A stretch of 37,778 nucleotides of DNA from assembly GCA_013362315.1 (NCBI GenBank), contig JABFWL010000176.1, positions 1 through 37,778 of the forward strand, written 5' to 3'. Positions 5,696-25,063 of this stretch are shown one piece after another. The translations under genes were made by a program, and so were the position numbers. The DNA is from Catenulispora sp. Its GTDB lineage: Bacteria > Actinomycetota > Actinomycetes > Streptomycetales > Catenulisporaceae. The number at the start of each line of letters is the position of its first letter. The first letter of the stretch is position 1. A model generated the notes under the pieces. That model did not search any database. It saw nothing but the letters and a program-made list of their open reading frames with translations, and was not told the origin of the DNA.

Positions 5696-5944
5696 TCACC
5701 CCCCGAAACGGAAACGGGCGTCAACGGGTTCAGCGGGCGAAGCCTCGATGGCTTGCACAGGACACAGCAGAACAGCTTGATCCACCGCAGACCGCAGGCC
5801 GGCGTCCGGATACGGCTCCCGCACCACGACCAAGCCCTCGTCGTCCTGATCGAACATCTCCGGCAGGATCGAGGCGCAGTTCCCCGATCCACAGCAGCGC
5901 GTGCGGTCGGCACGCACGGCGAGCCGCGGCTCGCCGCTCACCAC
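5696..5944 (-). CDS. 3Fe-4S ferredoxin, redox partner of the adjacent P450
   Basis: About 82 residues. The cluster-binding pattern is visible as RTRCCGSGNCASILPEMFD followed by LLCPVQAI: a Cys set separated by short loops with a final CP. This is the usual form of actinomycete single-cluster ferredoxins that feed P450s. Two adjacent GTG codons (5944 and 5941) could start it; the second overlaps the P450 stop (GTGA), so coupling to the P450 is likely either way. It is the last gene of the eight-gene leftward operon. No ferredoxin reductase is in the window, so a housekeeping one would supply electrons. Confidence 0.9.
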   Translation of the reverse strand: MVSGEPRLAVRADRTRCCGSGNCASILPEMFDQDDEGLVVVREPYPDAGLRSAVDQAVLLCPVQAIEASPAEPVDARFRFGG

Positions 5945-7149
5945 GCCACCTCCAGACGATGCACGCCGTGGATCATCCGGTCATGGGCGAACTCGATCCG
6001 GCCCTCGCCCTCAGCGACCCGCAGAGTCGGGAAGCGCCGGATCGTACGCTCGATCGCCACCTGGAGCTCCACTCTCGCGAGCGCCTGCCCGAGGCATTGG
6101 TGCACGCCGTAGCCGAACGACAGGTGGTGCCGGGCGCCGCGGTCGAGTCGGAGCCGGTCGGGGTCCTCGAAGGCCGCCGGGTCACGGTTGGCGGCCTCGA
6201 CGGAGACGATCACACCCTCGCCGGCCCTGATGATCTGGTCGGCGACCGTGACGTCCGCTGTGGCGACCCGACTCAAGCCGGCGCTCGCGATGGTGTGGAA
6301 GCGCAGCAGCTCCTCGACGGCAGCCGGGATCGCCTCAGGTGCCGAGCCGAGGAAGTCCCATGCCGTCCGGTCGCGCAGCAGCGTGGCCAGGGTGAGACTC
6401 AGCATGCTGGCGGAGGTCTCGTGTCCGGCGGTCAGCAGCAGGCGGGCCGTGCCCAGCAGGTCGGCCCGACTCATCCGGCCGTCCCGGACCGGCCCCTGGA
6501 CCAGGACGCTGAGCAGGTCCGTCTCAGGGTTCTTCTCCTTCCCCGTGACCAGCTCTTCGAGGTAGTCCGACAGGCCGCGCAGGGTGCCGATGAGCTGCCG
6601 CTGGGTTGCCGCCGAGTCGATCAGTGCCACGCTCAGCTCCTCGAAGTGCGGCCGATCGGCCACCGGCACGCCGAGGAGTTCGCACAGCACCAGCGAGGGC
6701 AGCGGGACGGCCAGCGTCGAGATCAGGTCGCAGGGCGGGCCCGCGGCCTGCACCGCGTCCAGGCAGGCCGCGGCGCGCTCTTCGACCATCGGCCGCAGCG
6801 TCGCGATCCGGCGGACGGTGAAGAACCCGGTCAGCAGTCGGCGCAGCTCATCGTGGGCAGGCGGATCCATCCGCAGCATCGTCGCCCCGCCCGCGCCGCC
6901 GGCCGCCGCCGCGAGCCGGCTGCCGCGGAATCCCGGACGCAGGTGCGGGTAGCCGGGCCGGCCGACGTCGGCGCTGAACCGGTTGTCCGCCAGCACGGCG
7001 CGGGCCTCCCGCCAGCCGGTCACGATCCAGGCCGTGCTGTCGTCCCAGAGCCGGACCCGGTCCACCGGGCCGCGCGCGGCGAGCTCCGCGAGCTGCCGGG
7101 GGATGCCGTACGGGTCGCTGCGCTGCATCGGGTAGGCGGGCAGACTCAT
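5938..7149 (-). CDS. Cytochrome P450
   Basis: 403 residues, normal for a bacterial class I P450. The I-helix reads LLLTAGHETSAS with the acid/threonine pair for oxygen activation, the ExxR region is VEELLRFHT, and the haem loop is FGYGVHQCLGQALARV with the thiolate ligand at about Cys352. The ATG at 7149 overlaps the stop of the upstream condensation-domain gene (ATGA), and the ferredoxin gene follows with its own overlap. It is probably a monooxygenase acting on the acyl or peptide product of this operon, for example hydroxylating a carrier-bound chain. The substrate cannot be read from the sequence. Confidence 0.95.
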   Translation of the reverse strand: MSLPAYPMQRSDPYGIPRQLAELAARGPVDRVRLWDDSTAWIVTGWREARAVLADNRFSADVGRPGYPHLRPGFRGSRLAAAAGGAGGATMLRMDPPAHDELRRLLTGFFTVRRIATLRPMVEERAAACLDAVQAAGPPCDLISTLAVPLPSLVLCELLGVPVADRPHFEELSVALIDSAATQRQLIGTLRGLSDYLEELVTGKEKNPETDLLSVLVQGPVRDGRMSRADLLGTARLLLTAGHETSASMLSLTLATLLRDRTAWDFLGSAPEAIPAAVEELLRFHTIASAGLSRVATADVTVADQIIRAGEGVIVSVEAANRDPAAFEDPDRLRLDRGARHHLSFGYGVHQCLGQALARVELQVAIERTIRRFPTLRVAEGEGRIEFAHDRMIHGVHRLEVAW

Positions 7150-8474
7150 CGCGAGATCACCGCCACCGCGCTGCTGAACGCGTCCCGCACGCCCCCGACC
7201 CAGTCGGCGTCGAGCCGGTCCGCGGCGTAGCGGAACAGCCCGGTGAGCCGGCCGGACCGCTGTGCGAGCACCAGCTCCAGCTCGAACCGGCTGGCCAGCC
7301 CGTCCGGCCAGGCCAGCTCGGCCGATTCCAGCCCGGCGAACAGGTCCCGGTCCTCGCCGGTGCCGGGCGGCTGCGCGATCATGTGGAACACGGCGTTCTG
7401 CGGGCTGCCGGCGGCTATCTCGGCGCCCGATCCGTAAGGCAGCGTGGCGTGGTGGACGCTCTGGTGCGTCAGCGCGCCGAGGACCGCGCGGCGAAGCTGA
7501 TCCACGCACCCGACCGGATCGTCCGTGATCCGCGCACGCAGGACGCTGAGATTCGCGAACATGCCGACGGTTCCGTGCAACTCGGGCCGGGAGCGGTTGG
7601 CGAAGATCGAGCCGACCGCCAGGTCCTCCTGGCCGGTGCGGGCCGCGAGGCCGTGCATGAACGCGCTCATCAGCAGTACGAACAGGGTGGTCCGGCGTTC
7701 GCGGGCGACCTCGCGGAGCCGGTCCAGCGCGGCCGGATCCAGCTCGACGTCCAGATGCCGGGCCGGCGGCCGCGACCCGGCGGCGCGGAACACGGTGGTG
7801 GCGAGCTCGCGCTCCGGTCCGGGCAGCTCGGCGAAGCGCGCGCCGCGCAGCACGTCGGCCCAGAACCGCCGGCCTGCCTGCGACACGCCGTTGCCGCTGC
7901 CGGCGGCCGCCGCGGCGAAGTCGGCGTACCGGGTCTGTTCCGGTTCCAGCTCCGGCCGCCGGTCGGCGACGATCGCGGTGTAGGCGCGGCCGAGGGCGGA
8001 CAGCACCAGGCGGTTCGACCACCCGTCCGTCATCAGATGGTTGACGTTGACGACGAACAGGTGCTCGTCCGGGCCGGTCCGCCACAGCGCCGCGCGCACC
8101 GGCCGGACCTTCGGGTCCGGCTCGTCCAGCAGCAGCTCGCGCACCTGGTCGAAGGCGTCCGCGAACGGCGTGACCGCGGCGGCGGGCCGCTCCAGCCGGA
8201 CACCGAGCGCCCCGGCCGGCCGGATCACCTGCGTCAGGGCCCTGTTGCGGACTTCGACGGTGGTGCGCAGCGACCCGAAACAGTCGACGACGGCGGCGAG
8301 CGCCCGCTCCAGGGCCTCGGCGTCGAGCGGACCGGTGAGCCGCAGGACCACCGGCACGCTCAGCAGGCCGAGCCCGCCCCGAGTGCGGTTCGCCAGCCAC
8401 AGCGTCCGTTGCGCCGGAGACGCCGGAGCGACCCGCACCTCGGTGTCCGTTTCCACATCCGCTGAGATGGTCAT
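7146..8474 (-). CDS. Free-standing NRPS-type condensation domain protein (I)
   Basis: 442 residues, the size of one condensation domain and nothing else. It opens with VAPASPAQRTLWLANRTRG (like C1) and has NVNHLMTDGWSNRLVL in the catalytic region. The canonical HHxxxDG is NHLMTDG here (N145-G151), so the first His is Asn but the catalytic second His (146) and Asp150 remain. LAVGSIFANRSRPEL and VGMFANLSVLR match the later C-domain core motifs. The ATG at 8474 overlaps the FAAL stop and the TGA overlaps the P450 start. Such stand-alone domains join two carrier-bound partners, or a carrier-bound acyl group and a free amine or alcohol. Donor and acceptor are unknown; the FAAL/ACP pair next door is the obvious donor candidate. 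Confidence 0.9.
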   Translation of the reverse strand: MTISADVETDTEVRVAPASPAQRTLWLANRTRGGLGLLSVPVVLRLTGPLDAEALERALAAVVDCFGSLRTTVEVRNRALTQVIRPAGALGVRLERPAAAVTPFADAFDQVRELLLDEPDPKVRPVRAALWRTGPDEHLFVVNVNHLMTDGWSNRLVLSALGRAYTAIVADRRPELEPEQTRYADFAAAAAGSGNGVSQAGRRFWADVLRGARFAELPGPERELATTVFRAAGSRPPARHLDVELDPAALDRLREVARERRTTLFVLLMSAFMHGLAARTGQEDLAVGSIFANRSRPELHGTVGMFANLSVLRARITDDPVGCVDQLRRAVLGALTHQSVHHATLPYGSGAEIAAGSPQNAVFHMIAQPPGTGEDRDLFAGLESAELAWPDGLASRFELELVLAQRSGRLTGLFRYAADRLDADWVGGVRDAFSSAVAVISR

Positions 8475-10063
8475 TCGCCGCCCTCCGGTGAGAACTTCAG
8501 CCACATTTCGCGGCGGCGCGGCTTACCGCTGCTGGTCTTCAAGATCTCCCGCGCGGCCACGCCGACCACCGAGAGCACGGCGTCCGGCTGCTGCCCGGCC
8601 AGATGCCGGACCAGCGGGCCGGGGTCGAGGTCGACCCGCCGGTCGTGGACCAGCAGCACCCTGATCCGGTCGCCTTCCTGACCCAGCAGGACGGCCGCCC
8701 GGCCCTGCCGGAACGCCGGGTGGTCCATCCGGGCCTCCAGGTCCTCGGCGAACAGCCACGTGCCGCGCACCTTGACCGCGTCGCCGATGCGCCCGATCAC
8801 GAAGAGCTCGCCGTCGGCCAGGAAGCCGGCGTCGCCGGTCCACAGCTCGCGCCCGACCAGGCGCGCCGAGCGCCCCGGGGTGCCGCGGTAGCCGCGGGCG
8901 GTCGCCGGGGAGGTGACGACGATCTCGCCGGGCTGTCTGTGTCCGGTGACCTCCCGGCCGCCGGGGTCGACGATCCGAACGTCCACGCCGGGCAGCGGCC
9001 TGCCGCAGGACACGTACTCGGCCGCGCCCGGACCGTCCAAGGTCACGGTGCGCAGCGGCTCGCCGGGCGCGGAGCCGGTCACCGCGAGCGTGGCCTCGGC
9101 CATGCCGTAGGCGGGGCAGAGCGCGCCGGGGTCGAGGCCGCGCGGGCCGAACCGGTCGCAGAACCGGTCCAGCAGGGTCGGCGGGATCCGTTCGGCGCCG
9201 ATGATGAGCGACCGCAGGCCCGACATGTCGAGGCCGGCCAGCACCCGGTCGTCGATCCGGCGCAGCAGCAGCTCCAGCCCGAACGGCGGCATCGCCGTGA
9301 TCGACCCGGCGCCGCCGCCGAACAGCGACAGGTAGCCGCCGGGATCGCGGACGAACTCGGCGGGCTCCATCACCCGCAGGTCCATCTGTTCGCTGATCGC
9401 CGTCAGGAAGGTCCCGATGAGCCCCATGTCGTGGTAGAGGGGGAGCCAGCTGACGGTCTCGTCGGCGGTCGTGGTGCCGAGCCAGCGGGCGATGCCGCTG
9501 ATGTTGGCGCCGACGGCTTCCGGCGCCAGCTGGACGCAGCGTGCGGCGCCACTGCTGCCCGAGGTGAGCTGCAGCAGATCACCCCGGCCCGCCGCGCGGG
9601 CCAGGGGCGCCGAACGCAGAACGCCCGGGTCCGGCGATCCGTCCTCCGGCAGCGGGGCCAGCACCGGCACCGGTCCCGCGAACCCGTCGAGGACCTCCTT
9701 CACCGCCGCGGCGAAGCGCTCAGGGCACAGGACCAGGCTCGGCCGCACCGCGCCGAGCGCCGTGCGCAGATGGACAGCATACGTGTCCTTATCGCCCAGC
9801 GCGCCCGGCGGTGCGATCAGGCACACATCGGTCCCGGCCGACAGCAGCCCGAACAACGCGGCGAACAACGCCGCGCACGGCGTCGCGATGATCAGAACGC
9901 TGTCCCGGGTCTCAGCCTGCTGCCACGGGACCGCCCCGCCCCACCGGTCGGCGAGCTCCGCCAGTTCTTCGTAGCCGATGCGCCGCGCAGGAGTGCCCAG
10001 CGCGGAGTAGGTGATGCCCGCACCGCTGCTGGGCTTGGCCAGCCAGTCCATCCAGTCGTCCAC
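8471..10063 (-). CDS. Fatty acyl-AMP ligase (FAAL family)
   Basis: 530 residues of the adenylate-forming superfamily. Visible motifs: LLQLTSGSSGAARCV (167-172 P-loop), VSWLPLYHDMGLIGTFL (206-215, very characteristic of FAALs), AYGMAEATLAVTG (319-328), ELWTGDAGFLADGELFVIGRIGDAV, and a C-terminal TSSGKPRR with the catalytic Lys near 514. FAALs activate a fatty acid as acyl-AMP and pass it to an ACP rather than to CoA. The GTG at 10063 is preceded at proper spacing by gaaggagc; an internal ATG at 10051 is less well placed. It sits 18 bases after the di-iron protein gene, and the free ACP two genes upstream is the likely acceptor. Chain length cannot be predicted by eye. Confidence 0.92.
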   Translation of the reverse strand: MDDWMDWLAKPSSGAGITYSALGTPARRIGYEELAELADRWGGAVPWQQAETRDSVLIIATPCAALFAALFGLLSAGTDVCLIAPPGALGDKDTYAVHLRTALGAVRPSLVLCPERFAAAVKEVLDGFAGPVPVLAPLPEDGSPDPGVLRSAPLARAAGRGDLLQLTSGSSGAARCVQLAPEAVGANISGIARWLGTTTADETVSWLPLYHDMGLIGTFLTAISEQMDLRVMEPAEFVRDPGGYLSLFGGGAGSITAMPPFGLELLLRRIDDRVLAGLDMSGLRSLIIGAERIPPTLLDRFCDRFGPRGLDPGALCPAYGMAEATLAVTGSAPGEPLRTVTLDGPGAAEYVSCGRPLPGVDVRIVDPGGREVTGHRQPGEIVVTSPATARGYRGTPGRSARLVGRELWTGDAGFLADGELFVIGRIGDAVKVRGTWLFAEDLEARMDHPAFRQGRAAVLLGQEGDRIRVLLVHDRRVDLDPGPLVRHLAGQQPDAVLSVVGVAAREILKTSSGKPRRREMWLKFSPEGGE

Positions 10064-10081
10064 GACCGCTTGCTCCTTCGC

Positions 10082-11047
10082 CTACTCCTTGACCAGACCC
10101 AGGGTCGCGAACACCGGCTGCAGGCCGGACCACAGCCCGAGCCGGCGCAGCGAGCCGGCGACGTTGCTGAACAGCACCCGCCGCAACGCCACCATGTCCG
10201 GATCCTCGCGGGCGTAGCGGCGGCCCTCGGCGACCGGCACCCCGAGCCGTTCCCAGACGCCGTCGAACAGGAAGCGCTGCGACATCAGCGCGACCGCCTC
10301 GGCGATGAACTCGCGCCGCTCGGCGAGCTCGGCCGAGCTCAGCCCGCCGAGGTGGCCGTCGAGGGCGACGACGCCGAAGCCGAGATGCCGGGCCTCGTCG
10401 CGCGCCACCCGGCGGGAGATGTCGGCCAGCAGCGGATCGGCGAACAGCACGTCGGCGAACCGCACGACGGCCAGCGCGATACCCTCCAGCAGCACCTGCA
10501 TGCCGATGAACAGCACGTCCCAGCGGGAGTCGGACAGCAGCAGCCCGAGCAGCTCCTCGATCTCCGCGGTCGGGCCGTAGGCGTGGCCGGTCCCGTCCAG
10601 GTAGCGCTGGAAGACCCGGATGTGCCGCGCCTCGTCCGCCACCTGGCTGGCCGCGACGCACTTGGCAGAGGTCTCCGGCAGGGTCTCGGCGAGCCGGGAG
10701 GTGAGCACGAGCGCTCCCTGCTCGCCGTACAGGATCTGACTGATGAGCCAGGCCTGGAGCTCGCGGCGGTAGACGCTCCACCGGTCCGGATCGCCCTGGG
10801 CGAACGGCGACGCGCGCAGCGCCGCGGCGTCCCGGTCCGACGGCCGGTAGTCGATCAGCTCCAGCGGCCGGGCCAGTGACCAGTCGATGTCGTCCTCGGC
10901 CCACTGCGCGGCCACGGCCTTGGTATAGATGTTCGCCATCCGGGCGTCGGCGTCGTCCGCGCCCCAGCCGATCCGGGCGTGGACGACGGCCGAGCGCGCC
11001 AGCCCGCCGGCCGCGCGGAACGGCGCCTGCCGGCCGGACTCAGCCAT
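10082..11047 (-). CDS. Ferritin-like non-haem di-iron protein
   Basis: 321 residues, mostly helical. A complete di-iron ligand set can be read: E109 (LYGEQGAL), E139/H142 (ADEARHIRVF), E188 (VLLEGIALAV) and E218/H221 (RDEARHLGFG). The two DEARH motifs on two helix pairs are classic for O2-activating ferritin-like enzymes, including acyl-ACP desaturases, AurF-type N-oxygenases and related oxidases. The extra His of AurF four residues before the last Glu is absent. The start overlaps the ACP gene by 8 bases, and the FAAL follows. By analogy with FAAL/oxidase/ACP trios (JamABC, CylABC), the likely substrate is an acyl chain on the ACP. Desaturation, hydroxylation or halogenation cannot be distinguished from sequence alone. 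Confidence 0.85.
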   Translation of the reverse strand: MAESGRQAPFRAAGGLARSAVVHARIGWGADDADARMANIYTKAVAAQWAEDDIDWSLARPLELIDYRPSDRDAAALRASPFAQGDPDRWSVYRRELQAWLISQILYGEQGALVLTSRLAETLPETSAKCVAASQVADEARHIRVFQRYLDGTGHAYGPTAEIEELLGLLLSDSRWDVLFIGMQVLLEGIALAVVRFADVLFADPLLADISRRVARDEARHLGFGVVALDGHLGGLSSAELAERREFIAEAVALMSQRFLFDGVWERLGVPVAEGRRYAREDPDMVALRRVLFSNVAGSLRRLGLWSGLQPVFATLGLVKE

Positions 11048-11324
11048 CGCTGCGCCGGGTCAGGGCTATGACGTAGTCCTCGATGTCGGCGACCGTCCGG
11101 ATCGAGGAGACCGATCCGTCATTGGTGAGGATGATCCCCAGCTCCTCCTCCATCGTCACGATCGCCTCCAGCAGCGCGAGGGAGTTGTAGCCCAGCTCGG
11201 CCTCCAGCTGGAGGTCGGATCTGTCGGACGTGCTCTTCACCGGGGCGAGGTCCAGCAGGATCTCGCGGACCTGGGCTCGGGTGGCCAGCTCGCTGGGGGT
11301 GTGTTCGTCGTTCACGGCGGTCAT
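11040..11324 (-). CDS. Free-standing acyl carrier protein
   Basis: 94 residues. The phosphopantetheine site is ELGYNSLALLEAIV with Ser48 as attachment residue; the usual GxDSL reads GYNSL. Helix IV and the tail (SVSSIRTVADIEDYVIAL) fit a carrier protein with a PKS/FAS-like or D-alanyl-carrier-like fold. The ATG at 11324 is preceded by gaaggagc. The stop lies 8 bases inside the next gene (di-iron protein), so the two are tightly coupled. It is the best candidate to receive the acyl group from the FAAL at 8471 and present it to the di-iron enzyme, a condensation domain or the acyltransferase at 17897. The Sfp-type transferase at 28824 could install its pantetheine arm. Confidence 0.93.
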   Translation of the reverse strand: MTAVNDEHTPSELATRAQVREILLDLAPVKSTSDRSDLQLEAELGYNSLALLEAIVTMEEELGIILTNDGSVSSIRTVADIEDYVIALTRRSDG

Positions 11325-11335
11325 GGCGTGCTCCT

Positions 11336-12820
11336 TCAGCGTGGCGTCAGCGTGTGCGCGGTTATCGGGTCGCTCGGGGTCTTCGGGGCGTTCGCAGTGG
11401 TCGCAGTGGTCGCAGTGGTCGCAGTGGTCGCAGTGGTCGCAGTGGTCGGAGTGTTCGGAGTGCTCGGGGCGGATCGGCGGGTCCCCGCCAGCGACTCCGC
11501 GGCGGTGACGTAGGCGTGGACGAACCGCTGGACGCGGGCGCGGTCGAAGCGGCTCGGCAGGTAGCGGACGACGCCGTCGAACCCCCGGCGGCGCGGGATC
11601 ACGAGCACCTGGAAGTCGAACCTGCTGCCGGCGCCGTCGGGGACGCGGAGCTCTTCGGCGACCAGACCGGCGAACGCGACCGCGTCCGGACCGGCGTCCG
11701 GCGGGACCGCGGACATGTGGAACACGACTTCCTCCGGCCGCCCCCGGGGCCGGACCGGGTCGGCGCTCCCGGCCAGGGGGACCTGAAGGAACGGGAGTTC
11801 TTCGTGCTCGAGCGCCGCGCGCACCGTGCGGTGGACCCGGTCGGCGAGGCCGCCCTCGCCCGTGACACCGAACCCGTCGCCGGTACCGGTGACCGGAACC
11901 CTGTCGCGGACGACGACCATGTTCGCGAAGAAGCCGACGGTCTGCTGGATCTGCGGCCGCGCGCGGTTGGCGAAGATCGAGCCGACGGCGAGGTCCGGCT
12001 GGCCGGTGACCGCCCGCAGCGCGGCGATCATCGCGGCGGTGAGCACCGAGTGCAGCGTGCCGCCCCGGCGACCGGCCGCCTGCTCCAGCGCCGCGATCAG
12101 CTCCGGCGGCAGGGCGAACCACTCCTGAGCCATCGCCGCGCCGCGCCGGGTCTTCAGATCGACTCCCCCGGGCTGATCCGGAAGCCGGCTGAACTCCACA
12201 TCGAGCAGTTGCTCGCGCCAGTACTCGCGGTGCCGGGCCAGCGTCGCCCCGGTGAGGTGCCGCTCCTGCCAGCGGATGTACTCGGACTGCTGCCAGGTGA
12301 CCTCGGGCAGCTCCGCCGGGACCCCCCGCACCGCCGCGCTGTACAGCGCCGAGAGGTCGCGACCGACGAGCCCGTTCGACCACGCGTCGGTGACCAGGTG
12401 GTGGATGTTCATCGCGAACAGGTGGTCGTGGTGTCCGATCCGCCACAGCGCTGTCGCGAGCGGCGAACGCGCGGGGTCCGGGTCCTGCCGCAGGAAGTCG
12501 GAAGCCTGCGATTCCGCGGCGGACCAGGGCTCCGGAGCGGACCGGAGGTCGGTGCCGCGGTAAGGCGTCTCAAACCGCTCAGGCTCGTGAACGAACTGGT
12601 GGAGGGTACGGCCGCGCATTCCGAAGGTGGTGCGCAGCGCTTCGTGCCGCCGGACGAGCCCGCCGACCGCCGCGACCAGGGCCGGCTCGTCGAGCTCGCC
12701 CCGGAGCCGGAAGAGCAGCGGAACCCCCATCGCGCGCTGCCCGCCGAGATAGCGGTCCATGACCCACAGCAGCCGCTGGCCCACCGAGGCCGGCTCGGCC
12801 CGCGCGGCGCCGACGGTCAC
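11336..12820 (-). CDS. Free-standing NRPS-type condensation domain protein (II)
   Basis: 494 residues from the GTG at 12820, which overlaps the stop of the upstream ligase (GTGA). The active-site block is NIHHLVTDAWSNG: both His are present (H140, H141) and Asp145, but the final Gly of HHxxxDG is Ala146. Later motifs LAVGSIFANRARPQI and VGFFANMVVVR resemble those of condensation domain I, so the two may be paralogues. The last 35 residues are a low-complexity tail dominated by repeated ATT triplets, encoded by a 9-bp minisatellite. It is followed after 11 bases by the ACP gene, whose ribosome site lies in the gap. The carrier fused to the upstream ligase and the free ACP are natural partner candidates. 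Confidence 0.9.
   Translation of the reverse strand: MTVGAARAEPASVGQRLLWVMDRYLGGQRAMGVPLLFRLRGELDEPALVAAVGGLVRRHEALRTTFGMRGRTLHQFVHEPERFETPYRGTDLRSAPEPWSAAESQASDFLRQDPDPARSPLATALWRIGHHDHLFAMNIHHLVTDAWSNGLVGRDLSALYSAAVRGVPAELPEVTWQQSEYIRWQERHLTGATLARHREYWREQLLDVEFSRLPDQPGGVDLKTRRGAAMAQEWFALPPELIAALEQAAGRRGGTLHSVLTAAMIAALRAVTGQPDLAVGSIFANRARPQIQQTVGFFANMVVVRDRVPVTGTGDGFGVTGEGGLADRVHRTVRAALEHEELPFLQVPLAGSADPVRPRGRPEEVVFHMSAVPPDAGPDAVAFAGLVAEELRVPDGAGSRFDFQVLVIPRRRGFDGVVRYLPSRFDRARVQRFVHAYVTAAESLAGTRRSAPSTPNTPTTATTATTATTATTATTANAPKTPSDPITAHTLTPR
11392..11463. repeat. 9-bp tandem repeat in condensation-domain tail
   Basis: Six identical copies of tcgcagtgg (11392-11445) followed by two diverged copies (tcggagtgt, tcggagtgc). 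On the coding strand the array encodes alternating Ala-Thr-Thr triplets in the C-terminal tail. The unit is a multiple of three, so slippage keeps the frame. Confidence 0.95.
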
Positions 12821-14730: not shown

Positions 14731-15214
14731 GTAGCTTTCATACCGCTAACCAGAGCGCTGATGCAACATCCCGGACAACGAACGGTTGACCGCCCGCTCG
14801 CGGTCGAGTCACCGAAACCTGAGAAAAGCGTTAAGGCAGGCGCGAGAGATGCCAGCCAATCTGCGGGGAGAAGCTGTGAAATCGACGAGTGAGCCGCCCG
14901 GCGACGGTCCCGACACCGCTGCGTCGTCGCCACCGAGTCCGGAGCCCACCTGCATGAACAGGCTCCGACCTGGGCTTTGAGCGTTCGGAGAACCGAGACG
15001 GGTGTCTCAGAATACGAACTCAGGGCTTGAACCTCCGACTCTCGCTCAGGTATTCTCCCGGTGAGAGATAGCCAGCACTTCTTGCGGTAGGCGGCCGGCG
15101 GGGACCGGTTCGCCACCTTCCGCGAAGGAACGGTCGTCGTATGACCTCCCATTATGGTCAGACGCCGTTGCGGATCCTCCCTCCAGGGCATTCGGGCCCT
15201 CATGCCTCACGAGG

Positions 15215-15234
15215 TCGGCATTGCTTCGGCATTG
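15215..15234. promoter_or_regulatory. Direct repeat tcggcattg with 11-bp spacing (possible activator site)
   Basis: Two perfect copies of tcggcattg start at 15215 and 15226, one helical turn apart. SARP-type activators bind heptamer direct repeats with 11-bp periodicity near -35 boxes. A chance repeat is possible and no -10 element is evident 8 bases downstream. Confidence 0.3.
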
Positions 15235-15435: not shown

Positions 15436-15552
15436 GCGCAATCCGCGCGTAACGAAAGTCTTTCACCGGCGGCCCGGTCCGAGGATGACTCCCGGGCCGC
15501 ATTCAGACCATATCAAGGCGGTATGGATTTCCATTGAGGAAGGAGGGAAATT

Positions 15553-15750: not shown

Positions 15751-15766
15751 TCGGGTGAGGCACGCC

Positions 15767-15801
15767 CCGGCAGGCCCGCCACAGGACGGCGGGCCTGCCG
15801 G
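15767..15801 (+). terminator. Strong stem-loop after the precursor gene (attenuator/terminator)
   Basis: A perfect 14-bp stem (left arm ccggcaggcccgcc, right arm its exact complement) encloses a 7-base loop, acaggac, and begins 16 bases past the precursor stop. There is no T-run, as is common for GC-rich actinomycete terminators. Its likely role is to give many precursor transcripts with limited read-through into the enzyme genes, or to protect the short mRNA's 3' end. Confidence 0.8.
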
Positions 15802-15971
15802 TCCCCCCACTCTAGCGAAAGTCCAGCGAACAAGAATAAGCCGGACAGCGGCCTGGCCATTCCCAGGTCAATGGCTGCTGCGGCGAAAAAGCCCGCGCCA
15901 CGCGGCGCCGTTCCACCCTGCCCGCGCCACACCGCCTGGACGGGGACCATTGCCGATGGTGAGGCCAGCCG

Positions 15972-17858: not shown

Positions 17859-17896
17859 GCATGCGCATTCAGCGTGACCGTTGAAGGGAGTCCACG

Positions 17897-19006
17897 GTGT
17901 CCACGGTGACGGTGACCGACCACAGCGAACAGCGGCAGCCTGACAGCCGCGGCAAGCCCGAACAGGGATGGCTGGAAGTGCCGTGCTGGTGCTGTCAGCA
18001 CAGAACAGCCCGGCGCGGTCGGTCGTTGTTCATGCCCGGGGAATGGAGTGCCAGCGAGCAGGACCGTTCCGCCTATCACACGGTGATCAGGACTCTGGGA
18101 TACCTCCCGCCGGACCAGCTCTTCGACACGCTCAGAACGCTTTGCCTCAACGAGACTCTTCTCCTGCAGCCGCAGCGCGCCGCGCTGATCGACCAGGCCG
18201 CGCGTCGCGGCATAGCCGAGTTCCCCGATTTCCTCGCCGCGATGGACGTGGAGGCGTTCGTCGCGGCTCACACGCAGTTCAAGCTCACACGCGGCGTGCA
18301 CTGGGTCTACACGACGGCCTGCAAATCAGTCCCCGATCTCGCCGACCAGATCGTCGCTTATGAGGGCCGCGAGAAGGTGCAGCGGGCACTGGCCGCGGGG
18401 CCGGTCATCCTGGCCGCCTTCCACTTCGGCCCGAGCGAGTTCCTGGTCGGCGGGGTCGCCAGCCGGGTCGCTCCGGTGACCGTGGTGGTCTCGGACCAGG
18501 AGCGCCGCCCGACCCGGGCGAACCGCTGGGTCATGCGCTCGGCGGCCTCGGCCGACATCGAGTCGGTGCAGAACGGCTCCATCGGCGTTCTGCTGCGCTG
18601 CCTGCGGGCGTTGCGCGCGGGCCGGGCCGTCATGATCTTCCCGGAGCTGTCGTTCAGCACCGGTCCGGAGCCGCGGCTGGCGCTCTCGTTCGGCGGACGC
18701 ACGATCAACGTGCCGATAGGGATCGGGGTCTTGGCGGCGAAGAGCGGGGCCACGGTCCTGCCCTGCCACGTCGAAAGTCCCGCTCCAGGCCGCTATCGCT
18801 ATGTGTTCGGCGACCCGATCGGACCGGGCCCGGGTCTGCTCGCGGAGCTGTTCGGGTATTGCGAAGCCCTCATCAAGAGCGGCCTGGCCCCCGAGTGGGA
18901 GTTCTGGCCGCATGTGGACAGGCTGCTCCACGTCCCGCCGGACTGGCCTGATCACCTTGTCATGGATTCCCTTCCCGCGCAGTACGTGAAGAGTGGTGGA
19001 CGTTGA
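17897..19006 (+). CDS. LpxL/HtrB-like (LPLAT superfamily) acyltransferase
   Basis: 369 residues from the GTG at 17897, preceded by gaagggag. The catalytic motif HX4E is visible as AAFHFGPSEFLVGG (H176, E181). It is followed by RALRAGRAVMIFPELSF and INVPIGIGVLAAKSGATVLPCHVE, the order expected for LpxL/HtrB/PatA-type acyltransferases. LpxL-type enzymes take acyl chains from acyl-ACP, and others of the superfamily use acyl-CoA. The N-terminal 30 residues are polar, then comes an unusual Cys-rich segment, EVPCWCCQHRTARRG. No membrane anchor is obvious. It lies inside the lanthipeptide operon and its stop overlaps the next TTG start (TTGA), so it is very likely a pathway enzyme that acylates the peptide or a biosynthetic intermediate. 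Confidence 0.82.
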   Translation: MSTVTVTDHSEQRQPDSRGKPEQGWLEVPCWCCQHRTARRGRSLFMPGEWSASEQDRSAYHTVIRTLGYLPPDQLFDTLRTLCLNETLLLQPQRAALIDQAARRGIAEFPDFLAAMDVEAFVAAHTQFKLTRGVHWVYTTACKSVPDLADQIVAYEGREKVQRALAAGPVILAAFHFGPSEFLVGGVASRVAPVTVVVSDQERRPTRANRWVMRSAASADIESVQNGSIGVLLRCLRALRAGRAVMIFPELSFSTGPEPRLALSFGGRTINVPIGIGVLAAKSGATVLPCHVESPAPGRYRYVFGDPIGPGPGLLAELFGYCEALIKSGLAPEWEFWPHVDRLLHVPPDWPDHLVMDSLPAQYVKSGGR

Positions 19007-19872
19007 AGCTGCCTGACGATTTCTCGATGACGTTGCTGGAGTTCCTGGACCTGTCCGTCGACCGGCCGGCGTCCGACAAGCGCGGACTCGCCGTCGAGTC
19101 CGCTGTCCGCGCCGAGGAGTCCGGATACCAGCGGCTGTGGATCGCCGAGCACCACGGCCGGGCGGCGCCCTGCGGGAGTCCGCTTCCCGTCGCCGCCGCG
19201 TTGGGTGCCATGGCGCTCCGACTGCGGATCGGGACCGCGGTCACACTGCTGCGGCTGCGGGATCCGTACCTGACGGCACTCGACATCGCCCAGGCGAGCC
19301 ACTTCTGCTCCGGCGGTTTCGATGTCGGCCTCGGACGCGGCGATGTCAGAGGGCCCGCCGAAGGGGCCGTCGCGCATTTGCGGAAGGACGACGAACAGCT
19401 CGCCGCCGATCTGGACGCCCTGGCGGCGATGCTGCGGGAAGGCGGCGAAGCGTTGCCGCCATTGGCCGGGAACTGGCAGCTGTGGTTGCACGGATCCGCC
19501 ACGACGTCCGCCGAACTGGCGGCGAAGCTGGGCGCCAACTACTGCCACGCGCTGTTCTTCAATCCCGACATCGAGCAGTGCCGCGCCGCGTTCCGGCGCT
19601 ACCGCGAGCTCGGCGGGCAGGGCGCCACGGCGATCGCCGTCGCCTTCGCCGCCGGGCAGCCCGGGAAGACCACCGACGAGGACGCGACCCGCCGCTGGGG
19701 GGTGCGCGTCAGCATGCTGCCGGACGCGGACATGTGCGCTCGGACGGCGTTGCGGGCGCTGGCGATCAGCGGCGCGCAGGAGCTGGTGATCGCGGAGCTG
19801 TCCCCCGATCCGGCGCAGCATCTGGATCGAATCACGGAAATACGTTCAAGTCTGCTGAAGCAAGCGGGGTGA
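19003..19872 (+). CDS. Luciferase-like (LLM) flavin/F420-dependent oxidoreductase, candidate LanJC
   Basis: 289 residues from a TTG that overlaps the preceding stop. It reads like an LLM-class TIM barrel: FLDLSVDRPASDKRG at the first strand, AEESGYQRLWIAEHH, LRLRIGTAVTLLRLRDPY and FDVGLGRGDVRG, then a long helical C-terminal half. It is somewhat shorter than typical LLM enzymes (330-360). In lexapeptide biosynthesis an F420H2-dependent LLM protein (LxmJ, called LanJC) reduces dehydroalanine to D-Ala. A similar reduction of unringed Dhb or Dha in this peptide is the most economical role. Oxidative decarboxylation or hydroxylation remain possible. F420 versus FMN cannot be decided by eye. Confidence 0.85.
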   Translation: MKLPDDFSMTLLEFLDLSVDRPASDKRGLAVESAVRAEESGYQRLWIAEHHGRAAPCGSPLPVAAALGAMALRLRIGTAVTLLRLRDPYLTALDIAQASHFCSGGFDVGLGRGDVRGPAEGAVAHLRKDDEQLAADLDALAAMLREGGEALPPLAGNWQLWLHGSATTSAELAAKLGANYCHALFFNPDIEQCRAAFRRYRELGGQGATAIAVAFAAGQPGKTTDEDATRRWGVRVSMLPDADMCARTALRALAISGAQELVIAELSPDPAQHLDRITEIRSSLLKQAG

Positions 19873-19878
19873 TGGGGC

Positions 19879-22800
19879 GTGACACAGCCTCCAGAAGGAA
19901 CACAGCCACCGGAAGAGATCGTGATCCTGCGGATGGCGGCGCTGCCGCTGGCCACCGGAACAGCGCTGTTGCGCGGCGATCGCCCCGAGGACGACGAGCG
20001 CGTCCGGGTCGGCATCGAGGTCGCGGCCGGATCGGGGCTGCTCGACGCCGCGACGGACAGCGACCGCGCCAAGGCCGCTGTGCACAGGTATGTGGCTCGC
20101 ATGAGCGCCCGGCCCACCCCCTTCGGCCTCTTCGCGGCGGCGGCCGCCGTGCCGGTCGCCGATGAGACCAGGCTCGCGATCGGCCAGAGCCTTGATGAGA
20201 GCGAAGACTTCACAGCACGGGCGTGGCTGGACTGCGAAGTGCTCCAGGGCGTCGTGGACCACGGGCTCGACAGCTGCGACGAGGACGCCGTGCCGCTGCG
20301 GCGCAACCCGACGCTTCAGCTGGTGGACGGGGCGTACCGGTACCGGCTGCCCGGGGATGAGACCTCTGATGTGGTCGAGGTCCGGGCGACCACCGTGGTC
20401 AGCCGCGCGGTGACCGCTTGCGGACCGGAGTCGGCGACCACCACCGAGATCGTCGCGGAACTCGCGCGGGAGTTCCCCACCGTGGACCGAGAAGGCCTGC
20501 GCGCAGTGGTGCGCGCCCTGGTGGAGCGCGGAGTGCTGCTCAGTGACGCGGGGCTGATCGTCCCCGGCGTCGAACCGGGTGATGCCGTCGCGGCCTTCCT
20601 GCGCCGATGCGGCCTGGACCGGCAGGCGGACACGGTGAGCCGGGTCAGTTCCCTGGTCGCGCGGCCGCAGAAGGCCACCGGCGACTATGTGGCGCACCTG
20701 GACGACGCGTGGAAGGAGCTCACTTCGGAGATACCGGGGCTGGACGGGATACCGCCGCAGTTCCGGTTCCACGTCGAGATGCAGGCGAACGTCGAGGGCA
20801 CGGTCAGCCGCGAGCTGCTGCGCAGCCTGTCGCAGGCGGTCATGCGACTGGAAGAGGTGTATCCGCCGGTCGACATGGCCAGCGACTTCTTCGACCGGTT
20901 CCAGGAGCGGTACGGGGACGCGACCGTGCCCCTGCTGCAAGCAGCGGATCCGGAGCACGGCGTTCTGGGACGCGGCAAGCGGGGCCGGTCGGCGATCGCC
21001 GCCGGCGTCAACATCGGCGGCGGGGGCTCGGACGGCCGCGGCAAGGTGAGCAGCGTGCAGTTGGCCGCTGTGGACCATTTCATGCGCACCGGAACCCCCT
21101 ACGACCTGGGAGCCCCCTCCAAGGACAATCCGGGTTCGGACTGCCTGGGTCTGATCGCGAGCCTGATCGGCCCCTCCGGCGCTCCGATGGCGGCGGTGCT
21201 CCACGGCGGCTCTCCCCGCTCGCCGGGGGCCTTCGCCGCGCGGTTCTCCGCGGGGCGGGGCGAGCTCACGGCGCAGTTGCGCGCCCAGGTGCGCGCGGTG
21301 AGCATCGGCCGGGCCGGGGCCGAGGACGCCATCTCCGCCGAGGTCGTGTATCACCCGTCCGGGCGGATCGGCAACGTCCTGGTACGGCCCGCCCTGTGCG
21401 ACGAGACGATCGCGCTTTCGGGCGCCGGCGGCGGGACGCTGGCGCTGGATCGGCTGCTGCTGCGGGTCGAGGGCCACCGGATCGCGGTATATGACGCGGT
21501 CACGGGACGTCCTGTGGTGCTGTTCGTGAGCTCGGCGCACGGGACCGAGAACGATCGTCTCGATCCTTTGTACTGGATGCTGGCGAACATCGGGGCGCGC
21601 GCCACGTGGTCGTGGCTGTGGGGGCCGCTGAGCCGGCTCTCGCATCTGCCGCGCGTCTGTTGCGGCGACGTGATCGTCGGGGCCGAGACCTGGCGGGTGC
21701 CCAGCGCCTCGGTCCGGGACGCCGTGGGCGCGGCGGACCCGGTCACCGCGCTGCGGGCGCTGCTTCCGGGCCTGGGCGACCGGACCTGGGTCGGCATCGG
21801 GCCGGCCGACGAGAAGCTGGCCATCGACACCACCTCCGCGCAGTCCATCACCGAGATCCTGAGCCGGCACCTCAAGGAGCGGGAGATCCAGCTCACGGAG
21901 CTGCCGCACGTCGAGCACCCGGCGGTCGCCGGCCGCGGCGGCGCCCACGTCGGGGAGATCGTCGTGGGCCGGGCCGCGGTGCGCGACCGGATCCGGGACA
22001 CCTCGCCGCACTGCCCGCCGCTGGCCCGGCCGGACTGGGTCTACTTCCAGTACTTCAGCGGGGTCTCGTCGTCGGAGCAGGTGATCTCGCGGGCGGCGCA
22101 GGTGGTGCGGCAGCTCAGGGATGCCGGTGCGGCGGACCAGTGGTTCTTCATCCGCTACGACGAGGGTGGGAACCATATCAGGGTTCGGATCCGGGCGGTG
22201 TCGGCGGCGGCTCGTCCCGCGGTGTTGGCCGCCCTGGACACGCTCGGGGGCACCTTGCTCGGCGAGGGCGTGATCACCTCGTACCGGTCCGATCAGTATG
22301 TGCCGGAGGGGCGCCGTTACGGCGGGCCGGAAGGGATGTCGGCGGCGGAGCGGCTGTTCAGCGCGGACAGCGACGATCTCGCGGCGCGGGTCGTCGGCGA
22401 GCCGAGCGAGGAGGACCGGCTCATCGCGGCGGCGTGCGACGTGTACGCATGGTGGCAGGCGGCGGGCGGCGGGGCTCGGCCGGAGTTGGAGGCGATGCGG
22501 CGCGCGCAGCGGGGGGTGGCCATGGGCGGCAATCTGGACCTGAAGCTCATCGGGAAGATCACCCGGAAGTACCGGCCGGAACTGGACCGGCGGTTCAAGC
22601 CGGAGCTGCACCCAGCGGTGCAGGCCGAGCTGGCGCGGTTCCTCGCCACGGTGAAGAGCAGCTGGGGCGAGCGGTATGTCAACGACCTCATGGCCTCGGT
22701 CGTGCACATGCACTGCAACCGCCTGTTCGCGTTCGACCCTCGGCGCATGGAGTACCTGGCGTACGCACTGGCGATTCAGAAGGCGGTTCAGGCGCATGCC

Positions 22801-22887
22801 TTGGCGGCCGCTTCGGGGAACAGCGACACGGCGGTTGGAAGCAAGCATGGAAGTGCGCATGAACTTGACCATGGAAGTGAGCACTGA
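19879..22887 (+). CDS. lanB: Class I lanthipeptide dehydratase LanB (full length)
   Basis: 1002 residues, the full LanB size with both domains. The N-terminal glutamylation domain carries the hallmark ARMSARPTPFGLFAAAAAV (about 75-93) and continues to about 700. The C-terminal elimination domain (SpaB_C type) begins near 715 with PDWVYFQYFSGV and includes ADQWFFIRYDEGGNHIRVRI. LanB uses glutamyl-tRNA to glutamylate Ser/Thr of the precursor and then eliminates glutamate to give Dha/Dhb. The two activities are on one chain, unlike the split dehydratases of many thiopeptide pathways. The GTG at 19879 follows the oxidoreductase stop by 6 bases; the ribosome site is weak, suggesting coupling. The tail is His-rich (KHGSAHELDHGSEH), which is unusual. 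The TGA overlaps the LanC start by one base. Confidence 0.96.
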   Translation: MTQPPEGTQPPEEIVILRMAALPLATGTALLRGDRPEDDERVRVGIEVAAGSGLLDAATDSDRAKAAVHRYVARMSARPTPFGLFAAAAAVPVADETRLAIGQSLDESEDFTARAWLDCEVLQGVVDHGLDSCDEDAVPLRRNPTLQLVDGAYRYRLPGDETSDVVEVRATTVVSRAVTACGPESATTTEIVAELAREFPTVDREGLRAVVRALVERGVLLSDAGLIVPGVEPGDAVAAFLRRCGLDRQADTVSRVSSLVARPQKATGDYVAHLDDAWKELTSEIPGLDGIPPQFRFHVEMQANVEGTVSRELLRSLSQAVMRLEEVYPPVDMASDFFDRFQERYGDATVPLLQAADPEHGVLGRGKRGRSAIAAGVNIGGGGSDGRGKVSSVQLAAVDHFMRTGTPYDLGAPSKDNPGSDCLGLIASLIGPSGAPMAAVLHGGSPRSPGAFAARFSAGRGELTAQLRAQVRAVSIGRAGAEDAISAEVVYHPSGRIGNVLVRPALCDETIALSGAGGGTLALDRLLLRVEGHRIAVYDAVTGRPVVLFVSSAHGTENDRLDPLYWMLANIGARATWSWLWGPLSRLSHLPRVCCGDVIVGAETWRVPSASVRDAVGAADPVTALRALLPGLGDRTWVGIGPADEKLAIDTTSAQSITEILSRHLKEREIQLTELPHVEHPAVAGRGGAHVGEIVVGRAAVRDRIRDTSPHCPPLARPDWVYFQYFSGVSSSEQVISRAAQVVRQLRDAGAADQWFFIRYDEGGNHIRVRIRAVSAAARPAVLAALDTLGGTLLGEGVITSYRSDQYVPEGRRYGGPEGMSAAERLFSADSDDLAARVVGEPSEEDRLIAAACDVYAWWQAAGGGARPELEAMRRAQRGVAMGGNLDLKLIGKITRKYRPELDRRFKPELHPAVQAELARFLATVKSSWGERYVNDLMASVVHMHCNRLFAFDPRRMEYLAYALAIQKAVQAHALAAASGNSDTAVGSKHGSAHELDHGSEH

Positions 22888-24068
22888 TGAGTGAGCAAGC
22901 GGCGATGGACCTCGCCACAGTCCTGCTTGAGGACGCCATCAAGACCGCGGATGAGGAGAGCGAGAACTTCTCGCTTCAGCTTGATGTCGCGCTGTGCTTG
23001 CTGGAGCGCGAACGAGCCGGCGGGCCGCCCGGGGACCCCACCGCGTATCTGGGACGCGCGATCGAGATCATCCGCGGCCGGGAGGAGACAGGGCCCTGGA
23101 TCTACGGCGGTGCCGCCCAGCTGGGCTGGGTGGCCAACACGCTGGTTCGCCGCGGACTGCTCAAGGCTCTGAACGCCGAGTGGATCGACGAGTACGTGCT
23201 GTCGAGCGCGCGGGACTACCCGGAGTCACTGGACGTCGACCTGCTCCAGGGCGTCATCGGCCTGGGAGTGTACGGGCTCAGCACCCCTTCGCCGTCGGCC
23301 CGGGAGGCGATCACCGCGGCCGTGGTCGACGTGATCGGCAAGCGGGCCGACAGTGACCAGGACGGGATGTTCCTGCGCCGGTCGAGCCCGTACCGGGCGA
23401 GCCTGGGGCGCGGCTACGTCCTCGGCCAGCGGGACCTCGGCGTGGCCCACGGGACGATGGGGGTCGCCGCGTACCTCGCGATGGTGGCGCGCAGTGGCCT
23501 GAGCCCGGCGCCCCAGGCGCTGGAGCTGCTGACGCCGATGGCGCGCTGGCTGCTGGCCATGGCGGTCCCGGACGACGAGACGACGGTGTTCGGCGCCATC
23601 GCCGAGAGCCGCTGGCACCCCACGCGCAGCGCCTGGTGCTACGGCGACCCGGGGTCGTCGATAGCGTTGGCGCTGGTCGCCGAGTCGCTGCAGGAGCAGG
23701 AGCTCAAGAGTGCGTGCGAGGAGCACGCGCTGCGAGCGGCCACCGCGGCGGCCGGCCGGCCGAGCGAGCGGTCGGGGGTGACCGATGCCAGTGTCTGCCA
23801 CGGAGCCGCCGGGTTGTGCTACTTCGGGCGTAAATGGTCGCAGACGTTCGATCTGGATAGCATGGGCTACGCCCAGGAGTGGTATTCGTGGATTGAGCAG
23901 CGGCGGATAGGCGGCAGGCTCAGCTACCTGAAGCCCACCGGGCAGGTCCAGGACGCCTCGTTCCTGGAAGGGGACTGCGGGACTGCCGCAGTGCTCTTCT
24001 ACCTGGCGTCGGGCAAGGCACCGTTGTGGGAGGAGCTACTTCTTATGGCGCGTCCGGAGGACGTGTAG
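22887..24068 (+). CDS. lanC: Lanthionine synthetase C-like cyclase LanC
   Basis: 393 residues, typical of stand-alone LanC. Zinc ligands are in place: Cys251 in SAWCYGDPGSS and Cys304-His305 in ASVCHGAAGLCYFG. The first conserved Gly/His motif is GVAHGTMGVAAYL. LanC folds as an alpha/alpha toroid and adds Cys thiols to Dha/Dhb to form (methyl)lanthionine rings. The start overlaps the LanB stop by one base (TGATG) and the stop shares its last base with the GTG of the protease gene, so LanB, LanC and the protease are co-translated. Nothing essential appears missing. Confidence 0.96.
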   Translation: MSEQAAMDLATVLLEDAIKTADEESENFSLQLDVALCLLERERAGGPPGDPTAYLGRAIEIIRGREETGPWIYGGAAQLGWVANTLVRRGLLKALNAEWIDEYVLSSARDYPESLDVDLLQGVIGLGVYGLSTPSPSAREAITAAVVDVIGKRADSDQDGMFLRRSSPYRASLGRGYVLGQRDLGVAHGTMGVAAYLAMVARSGLSPAPQALELLTPMARWLLAMAVPDDETTVFGAIAESRWHPTRSAWCYGDPGSSIALALVAESLQEQELKSACEEHALRAATAAAGRPSERSGVTDASVCHGAAGLCYFGRKWSQTFDLDSMGYAQEWYSWIEQRRIGGRLSYLKPTGQVQDASFLEGDCGTAAVLFYLASGKAPLWEELLLMARPEDV

Positions 24069-25063
24069 TGCGTCGAGGCGCGTTGGATCCGCGGACTCCG
24101 ACACAGATCGAGAAGTACCTGAGTGGCGCGCTGAAGGTGATTCAGCGGGAAGGGCTGTATAGCGGCAGCATGGATTGGGACGCGATTCACGCGCAGGCGC
24201 GGGAGTGTGCGGCGCAGTCGCGGAGCTATGCGGGTACGCATCGGCTGCTGTATCGGGTGTTGAAAGAGGCGGGTGGCGATCATAGCCATATGGCTTTGTC
24301 GTATCGGCCTCCTGGGGAGGAGGGCGGTACCCGGAAGGCGGGCACCGGAAGCGCATCGTCGAACAGTGCCGAAGATCCGCCGTTGCCGGAGGGCCGCTTG
24401 ATCGAAGGTGCGGCCTACCTCACGCTGCCGACCCTGTCTCGACGATCCGGCGGACCCCTCCTGGCGCACCGCTACATCACAGCCGGCAGCCGCCTGATCG
24501 ACGAGCTCGCCGCCGCCGGGCCCCAGGGGTGGATCGTGGACCTGCGGGAGAACACCGGCGGCAACATGTGGCCGATGATCGCCGCCATCGCCGGGCTGCT
24601 CGACCGCGGAGTCCTCGGCCGGTTCCTGCTCCCGGACGGCCGCAGCCAGGCGTGGCGCCTCAGGCGCGGCTACGCCAGCGGCTACGTCAGCCTGAATCGC
24701 CGACCGATGGCCCGGGTGCCGCACCGCGCGCAGCGCAGACGCGGCGCACCGCTCGCGGCACTCGCCTCTGCCCGCACCGCCAGCGCCGGCGAGGCAGCCC
24801 TGATCGCCCTGCGGTCCCAGTCACCGTCGCGCACCTTCGGCACCCCGACCGCCGGGATGACGACCGGCAATATCACGCACTTCCTGCCGGACGGGACACG
24901 GCTGATGATCAGCGTCAGCCACTACGCGGATGCGGAGGGGCGGTTGATCAGGGGGCGGATCGAGCCTGACGAGGTGGTTGCGGGCGGCGAAGTCGGGGAC
25001 GCCGGCGGACCTGGTGGTGGCGACAGCGCTCTGAAGCAGGCTCTTGCCTGGATCGGGGCGTAG
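24068..25063 (+). CDS. S41-family serine peptidase, candidate leader protease
   Basis: 331 residues. The GTG at 24068 shares one base with the LanC stop and removes an unlikely N-terminal extension. The N-terminal helical part shows MDWDAIHAQARE and AGGDHSHMALSY, common in S41 peptidases. The core has GWIVDLRENTGGNMWPM, ARTASAGEAALIAL with likely nucleophile Ser239, and RTFGTPTAGMTTGN. The GKG-type lysine of CtpA proteases is replaced by Met in this last motif, which places it nearer the tricorn/IRBP-like branch. No signal peptide is visible, so it should act in the cytoplasm. Because the exporter lacks a C39 domain and no subtilisin-type LanP is present, this is the best in-cluster candidate for leader removal or trimming. 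It is the last gene of the operon and converges with the ArsR gene. Confidence 0.85.
   Translation: MRRGALDPRTPTQIEKYLSGALKVIQREGLYSGSMDWDAIHAQARECAAQSRSYAGTHRLLYRVLKEAGGDHSHMALSYRPPGEEGGTRKAGTGSASSNSAEDPPLPEGRLIEGAAYLTLPTLSRRSGGPLLAHRYITAGSRLIDELAAAGPQGWIVDLRENTGGNMWPMIAAIAGLLDRGVLGRFLLPDGRSQAWRLRRGYASGYVSLNRRPMARVPHRAQRRRGAPLAALASARTASAGEAALIALRSQSPSRTFGTPTAGMTTGNITHFLPDGTRLMISVSHYADAEGRLIRGRIEPDEVVAGGEVGDAGGPGGGDSALKQALAWIGA

Follow-up and report, generated by a model that had tools for sequence, protein, structure and literature searches.

A class I lanthipeptide operon diverging from an acyl-activation operon in Catenulispora sp.: a possible pathway to an acylated lanthipeptide

Two divergent operons on one contig

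The DNA analysed here, referred to as the window, is a complete contig of 37,778 nucleotides (JABFWL010000176.1, assembly GCA_013362315.1) from a draft genome of the soil actinobacterium Catenulispora sp. (7.97 Mb, 770 contigs, 81.6% complete), and carries two operons that point away from each other (Table 1). The right operon consists of seven genes on the plus strand (15553-25063), encoding in order LanA, LanT, an LpxL-like acyltransferase (AT), a luciferase-like oxidoreductase (LLM), LanB, LanC and a peptidase of family S41. The left operon consists of eight genes on the minus strand, running from 14730 to 5696 with overlaps or short gaps throughout, for a ligase fused to a peptidyl carrier protein (PCP), a condensation (C) domain (C1), an acyl carrier protein (ACP), a di-iron protein, a fatty acyl-AMP ligase (FAAL), a second condensation domain (C2), a cytochrome P450 and a ferredoxin. 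Judged by sequence, the right operon is a class I lanthipeptide pathway and the left operon an acyl-activation and modification set. Whether the two form one composite cluster for an acylated class I lanthipeptide is, in our estimate, evenly balanced.

An earlier note on this DNA had described a LanA/LanB/LanC set with an LpxL-like acyltransferase, placed back to back with the left-operon genes across a shared region of about 820 bases. These parts are all borne out: LanB, LanC and the acyltransferase by Pfam, LanA by alignment with relatives and every left-operon product at the family level, and the gap between 14730 and 15553 measures 822 bases. The exporter LanT, the LLM flavoprotein and the S41 peptidase are additions to that listing. 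Scanning 14600-15990 for a simple sigma-70 consensus revealed no promoter-like site, a result that says little for an actinobacterium. Within the right operon, the overlaps are of 4 bases between AT and LLM and of 1 between LanB and LanC; LLM and LanB are 6 bases apart, and a gap of 221 bases separates LanA from LanT. The start codons of C1, P450 and S41 are uncertain.

Table 1. Genes of the two divergent operons and the region between them
Feature	Coordinates	Strand	Evidence
LanA precursor, 65 aa	15553-15750	+	Aligns with LanA from 5 homologous loci
LanT, ABC exporter, permease + ATPase	15972-17858	+	Pfam ABC_membrane, ABC_tran; no C39 peptidase domain reported
AT, LpxL-like (LPLAT superfamily) acyltransferase, 369 aa	17897-19006	+	Pfam Lip_A_acyltrans, 24.0 bits (cut-off 22.3)
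LLM, luciferase-like oxidoreductase	19003-19872	+	Pfam Bac_luciferase; five relatives have an LLM (43-49% identity) next to LanB
LanB, full-length lanthipeptide dehydratase	19879-22887	+	Pfam Lant_dehydr_N 214.9 bits, Lant_dehydr_C 138.4 bits (PF04738, PF14028; far above cut-off)
LanC, lanthionine cyclase	22887-24068	+	Pfam LANC_like (PF05147), 79.5 bits; CYG (251), CHG (304)
S41 peptidase related to nisin-resistance protein NSR	24026-25063	+	PDB 4y68, E 1.1e-19; HSH (86), TASAGE (251)
Divergent intergenic region	14731-15552		822 bases
Ligase-PCP fusion, acyl/aryl-CoA-ligase-like adenylation domain + PCP, 637 aa	12817-14730	-	Pfam AMP-binding, AMP-binding_C, PP-binding
C1, free-standing condensation domain	11336-12820 (start approximate)	-	Pfam Condensation, 175.3 bits; motif HHLVTDA
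ACP, 94 aa	11040-11324	-	Pfam PP-binding, 24.7 bits (cut-off 20.8); carrier serine in GYNSL
AurF-type ferritin-like di-iron oxygenase, 321 aa	10082-11047	-	Pfam AurF, 36.8 bits (cut-off 29.6)
FAAL, 530 aa	8471-10063	-	Pfam AMP-binding; best PDB match a FAAL
C2, free-standing condensation domain	7146-8504	-	Pfam Condensation, 136.4 bits; motif NHLMTDG
Cytochrome P450, heme loop HQCLG	5938-7167 (start approximate)	-	Pfam p450; tree
Single-cluster ferredoxin, likely P450 partner	5696-5944	-	Pfam Fer4_13

The lanthipeptide operon and its acyltransferase

LanA has no match to any Pfam or NCBIfam model. It has, in common with its relatives, a leader block L--D--T---P and a core that starts with TTCW, and seven Cys are located within its last 22 residues. 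The last Lys is residue 23 and there is none on the core side, the border between leader and core being approximate. LanC carries CYG and CHG motifs, which we take to be its zinc ligands, and its matches to the LanKC and LanL models are far below cut-off. A precursor with a leader and a Ser/Thr/Cys core, a two-domain LanB and a separate LanC with Cys/His motifs are thus all present, as expected of a class I pathway. LanB would dehydrate Ser and Thr residues and LanC would close the thioether rings, as predicted from their families, and LLM may reduce a dehydro-residue, as Walker et al. (PMC7268733) suggested in assigning the LanJC role to enzymes of this family. LanT would then export the product.

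The acyltransferase is a marginal member of its family, with no NCBIfam cut-off reached. It has the motifs HFGPSE (H-x4-E, His176) and FPE (248), of which H-x4-D/E is, we presume, the family motif of LpxL/LPLAT acyltransferases.

In the PDB the S41 peptidase has one strong match, the nisin-resistance protein 4y68, with the next at E 0.0013. The Ser and His motifs of NSR are present in the window protein, but NSR is anchored in the membrane outside the cell whereas the window translation, read by eye, has no hydrophobic N-terminal stretch; S41 may therefore be cytoplasmic and may serve as leader peptidase or in self-protection. A congener has a relative (42% identity, L078) on a contig of 4.4 kb that lacks lanthipeptide genes.

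The acyl operon

The closest solved relatives of the ligase-PCP protein, from a sequence search of the PDB, are oxalate-CoA and malonyl-CoA ligases, and its acid is therefore probably not a standard amino acid. The carrier serine of its PCP is present in a GGDS motif. The C2 motif retains the second His, the first being replaced. In the di-iron protein, two ExxH motifs, along with two additional Glu, are common to the eight relatives in an alignment, and the likely metal ligands, assigned by eye, are E109, E139, H142, E188, E218 and H221. The FAAL scores 257.8 bits against the fatty acyl-AMP ligase model PRK09192 of NCBIfam, under its cut-off of 600, and is encoded in one operon with a stand-alone ACP, as expected of a FAAL lipo-initiation set. 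Pfam annotation of the eight genes gave no thioesterase, exporter or regulator belonging to the left operon.

From these families, the FAAL would activate a fatty acid and load it on the ACP, where the AurF-type enzyme could oxidise, desaturate or halogenate the bound chain. The ligase-PCP would load a second small acid, C1 would join this acid and the acyl chain, and the P450 and ferredoxin would oxidise the product of the operon.

Relatives of the lanthipeptide operon

At E 1e-40, LanB has matches in 6 of 394 genomes of the class, including the window's own, two of them near (39 and 43% identity) and three distant (30-31%); LanB relatives in plasmids are 22-29% identical. An alignment of three near LanB proteins was used for one scan of a large genome collection, which returned 66 pattern matches and eight confirmed relatives; five of these eight have a distant LanB (25-35%) and no LLM match. 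The near loci of what we call the LANTHIPEPTIDE family number five, from Glycomyces fuscus (L019), a Kutzneria metagenome-assembled genome (L020), Nocardiopsis alborubida (L021) and the genomes G536 and G505. They share the gene order LanA-LLM-LanB-LanC-ABC-ABC, and their LLM (43-49%), LanC (40-42%) and LanB (35-38% over the longest tblastn segment) are all identifiably related to those of the window. Their LanA proteins align with the window LanA across the leader and the start of the core. The cores are near-identical across the five loci (about GTTCWGTPCPSANTISC); searches of the literature with core fragments matched only a string readable as DNA letters, under titles that are not about lanthipeptides.

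The window differs from these loci in having LanT and AT between LanA and LLM, one ABC gene versus two, an added S41 gene, and a longer LanA core with seven Cys versus a short core with three. The AT, S41, FAAL, C1, C2, ACP, di-iron and ligase-PCP proteins have matches in none of the five (E 1e-3 for G536 and G505, E 1e-4 for L019-L021), with at least 3.6 kb upstream of LanA covered in each; ABC-protein matches were omitted in comparing the L019-L021 neighbourhoods. Conserved linkage of the precursor family to FAAL, C and ACP genes, which the earlier note had suggested looking for, thus fails in all five.

A P450 is encoded nearby in four of the five loci, with 38-45% identity to the window P450, and was considered as a possible bridge between the operons. 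This was dropped on the evidence of a tree and of commonness: in a tree of 32 P450s, those of the four related loci form one clade (99/95) within a larger group (97/95) that excludes the window P450, and P450s similar to it (up to 44%) occur in 19 of 60 genomes of the class at E 1e-60, including the window's own.

Rarity of the acyltransferase

The ACYLTRANSFERASE acyltransferase is rare. Apart from the window's own, none of 293 genomes of the order gives a match at E 1e-8, and among 394 genomes of the class a single further match reaches E 1e-9 (G443, 30% identity, weak), the best five or six candidates per genome being scored for this protein, and the best two to six in the large class and order searches overall. 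A family sample of 14 genomes gave three other matches (E 6e-6 to 8e-4), whose translations read as general LPLAT proteins, and there is no relative in plasmids or in viral contigs (IMG/VR). As read from their translations, the neighbours of the G443 relative (L100) are a P450 and other metabolite-type genes. Near this class-sample relative, the loci L101-L102 have, likewise from translations, a P450 and what look like genes for a flavin-dependent halogenase-like protein and for a threonyl-tRNA synthetase.

Among the loci examined, the acyltransferase is found only where both halves meet. As it is absent from the five homologous loci and rare, it was probably acquired by this lanthipeptide pathway, at the place where the acyl operon adjoins. 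It could work there without that operon. LpxL/PatA-type enzymes use common acyl donors. The window acyltransferase might acylate the lanthipeptide from housekeeping acyl-CoA or acyl-ACP; the GNAT that acylates nostolysamides took ordinary acyl-CoAs in vitro (PMC13060382). On this reading, which we consider unlikely, it would be coincidence that a dedicated acyl-ACP operon lies alongside. A further reading spares the peptide. Relatives of the LpxL/PatA type acylate membrane lipids, and the operon also encodes the S41 protein, which is similar to an immunity peptidase, so that the two might jointly provide self-protection; yet the only relative from the class sample is near a P450 and metabolite-type genes and not near lipid genes, and we regard a lipid-modifying role as very improbable.

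Relatives of the acyl operon

The di-iron family is common, with matches in 94 of 394 genomes of the class at E 1e-20, the window's own included. Four matches stand apart (41-45%, 229-234 bits) from the rest (at most 40% and 187 bits), and the neighbourhoods of the best eight besides the window's own were read. Three of the close relatives (L057-L059), all from genomes of the same taxonomic order, have a FAAL (39-40%) within ~2 kb and C domains of the nonribosomal peptide synthetase (NRPS) type around them, and an acyl-starter role therefore fits. The fourth (L060) has a C domain (39%), an ACP (30%), an AMP ligase (28%) and a P450 (32%), and no separate FAAL match. Alongside the four distant relatives (L061-L064) there is no FAAL, C, ACP, AMP ligase or P450 match.

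Within the genus, two congeners (L075, L079) have a FAAL (37-38%), an ACP (38%), a C domain (37%) and P450s, without a di-iron protein; another locus (L076) pairs a FAAL (34%) with a distant di-iron match (30%), and a fourth (L077) a di-iron relative (35%) alone. The L075 and L079 cassettes carry further P450s and, from the translations, L075 also has methyltransferase-like genes. Matches to LanB, LanC or AT are absent from all the left-type loci (E 1e-4 for L057-L064; E 1e-8 for L075-L077 and L079); ABC/LanT matches were omitted from these comparisons, as were histidine kinase (HK) matches for the genus loci. The FAAL, di-iron, C and ACP genes are thus a recurring acyl-starter theme that elsewhere works without a lanthipeptide.

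Of four regions examined around di-iron relatives on plasmids, two lack annotation. In a third, on a Streptomyces plasmid (L006, 5546-22472), the neighbours of the di-iron relative are AMP ligases, a pair of carrier proteins and a gene of the anthranilate-synthase type; in the fourth (L005) the relative is not beside AMP ligases or carrier proteins.

Genomic context

Nine other genomes of the genus were available for comparison, one of them a single 10.5 Mb contig. The FMN dehydrogenase encoded in the right flank has a close counterpart (79-84%) in four of the nine, and in these four the right flank (26495-37761) is syntenic with protein identities of 73-88%, except for an MFS gene, for which three of them reach 35-37%; one of these contigs spans only four flank genes. 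For the block 5690-25069, the matches listed in the nine genomes are all short or due to gene families, mostly to the ABC exporter, the longest being ~1.5 kb, and some of the short ones led to the FAAL cassettes and to the lone NSR-like S41 gene (L078). With so few matches next to a syntenic flank, the block looks accessory. An empty insertion site was sought, but the left-flank HK-MHYT gene matches one congener only, on another contig (G006:C642), and no clean site emerged.

At the left border, the gene for a secreted lipoprotein (5091-5699), located left of the ferredoxin gene, was excluded from the operon because it has a ribosome-binding-like GGAGG of its own. At the right border, a dehydrogenase gene, ADH (~25474-26517, start codon uncertain), was considered as a LanJA-type reductase and left out because a gene for an ArsR-type regulator (25068-25412) on the opposite strand separates it from S41. 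The stretch 27455-27667, flanked by the 26495-27433 gene and that for the FMN dehydrogenase, matches GNAT weakly (19.7 bits, cut-off 25.4); it is not part of the cluster, as DNA matches occur at the same place in three congeners.

One pathway or two

The earlier note had proposed that acyl-ACP made by the left operon is attached to a class I lanthipeptide. The evidence upholds a class I operon with an integral acyltransferase, diverging from an acyl operon; it stops short of a single joint product. We infer a functional union from the position of the operons, from an acyltransferase found only here, and from a left operon with neither release enzyme nor exporter. The acyltransferase gene is integral to the lanthipeptide operon, overlapping that of LLM and retaining H-x4-E and FPE, and both operons diverge from the same 822-base region. 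The acyl thioester would be handed to the peptide by the acyltransferase, or by C2, and since Lys is absent from LanA beyond residue 23, it would have to go on the N-terminal amine or on a hydroxyl; the NSR-like S41 peptidase, apparently cytoplasmic, would remove the leader or give self-protection. In its fullest form, with a tail built by a mini-NRPS and transferred by an LpxL-type enzyme rather than a GNAT to the N-terminus or a hydroxyl, the product would be a class I lipo-lanthipeptide and the pathway a hybrid of ribosomally synthesized and post-translationally modified peptide (RiPP), NRPS and fatty-acid biosynthesis; we hold this more specific version tentatively, leaning slightly against it.

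Several observations weigh against a joint product. Five related lanthipeptide loci occur without the left operon, and left-type cassettes, albeit partial ones, occur without LanB, LanC and AT (L075, L079, L060). As L019, L021 and G536 are near-copies of each other, both in the P450 tree and in their cores, the five loci count as about three lineages, and so the contrast in the acyltransferase rests on about three independent cases. Nor is the acyltransferase the sole difference, since these relatives also lack S41 and carry two ABC genes. The window P450 does not group with those of the related loci. The acyltransferase is barely above its Pfam cut-off and could use ordinary acyl-CoA. The right-operon genes are lower in GC than those of the left operon (GC1 0.707 versus 0.749) and are more distant from the flank genes in codon use (0.563 versus 0.390), slight differences that allow separate origins. 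The one scan of the large genome collection returned no second genome with both halves.

The main rival, against which we lean while taking it seriously, is two independent neighbouring clusters, one for a class I lanthipeptide (15553-25063) and a small NRPS-like one (5696-14730) whose product is a free metabolite, either an N-acyl compound or an acyl ester. Biosynthetic clusters are often side by side in large actinobacterial genomes, both modules occur separately, FAAL-ACP-C-P450 cassettes without LanB, LanC and AT are present in the same genus, and the two operons differ in GC and codon use. Independence would leave unexplained a lanthipeptide operon with an acyltransferase missing from its five relatives, a left operon without its own release enzyme or exporter, and the divergence of both from one short region. 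The earlier note had held that LanB/LanC/acyltransferase operons regularly lacking the left operon, together with left operons alone in other strains, would indicate unrelated clusters. The halves do occur apart, with five of five lanthipeptide loci lacking the left operon and left-type cassettes standing alone; because the five loci also lack the acyltransferase, no LanB/LanC/AT operon without the left operon was found, and the outcome as worded was not reached. Parts of both halves thus have separate histories, and a composite cluster for an acylated class I lanthipeptide stays, in our judgement, level with its alternatives taken together.

Comparison with known acylated lanthipeptides

The acylated lanthipeptides described in PMC13060382 are of class III with N-terminal lipids or are acylated on side chains by GNATs, nostolysamide being of class II. 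The lipolanthines and their kin (microvionin, goadvionins, lipoavitides) resemble the proposed product as acyl-tailed lanthipeptides, and the microvionin cluster also has fatty-acid or polyketide genes. They are, however, of class III and acylated by GNATs in that account, whereas the window has LanB and LanC in place of a class III synthetase, an LpxL-like candidate transferase, and no GNAT match in Pfam among the proteins of 5696-25063; its acyl genes are for FAAL, ACP, di-iron and C-domain proteins, unlike those described for microvionin. Selidamides and nostolysamides are likewise acylated, by GNATs acting on Orn or Lys side chains as far as that account goes, but the last Lys of the window LanA is residue 23 and the cluster has no GNAT. 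The LanA-LLM-LanB-LanC-ABC-ABC loci resemble the window in LanA leader, TTCW, LLM, LanB and LanC. Their core is short, with three Cys, they carry a pair of ABC genes, and the P450 that four of the five have belongs to a different clade; AT, an NSR-like S41 and the left operon are missing from them.

For the left operon, sets of FAAL, ACP and a CylC-type dimetal halogenase offer a parallel, in which the dimetal-carboxylate enzyme is expected to act on the fatty chain (PMC8406957); both have a FAAL and ACP beside a dimetal enzyme, the window enzyme being AurF-type, ferritin-like and 321 aa long. Enzymes resembling lantibiotic dehydratases have been reported in NRPS clusters in a preprint (PMC10769383). 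No lipidated class I lanthipeptide was recognisable, nor such a phrase found, in titles and the beginnings of abstracts, in which subscription papers are thinly covered, and the literature searched shows no RiPP/NRPS/fatty-acid hybrid of the type proposed.

Even if the operons do not act jointly, the right operon represents a small class I family with an LLM enzyme and usually a P450, here with an NSR-type peptidase. Acting together, the two halves may yield a peptide with a fatty tail that represents an undescribed kind. If so, class I would add one more origin of fatty acylation among lanthipeptides, with another transferase and another route to the tail, and the enzymes could be able to join unusual acyl groups to ribosomal peptides.

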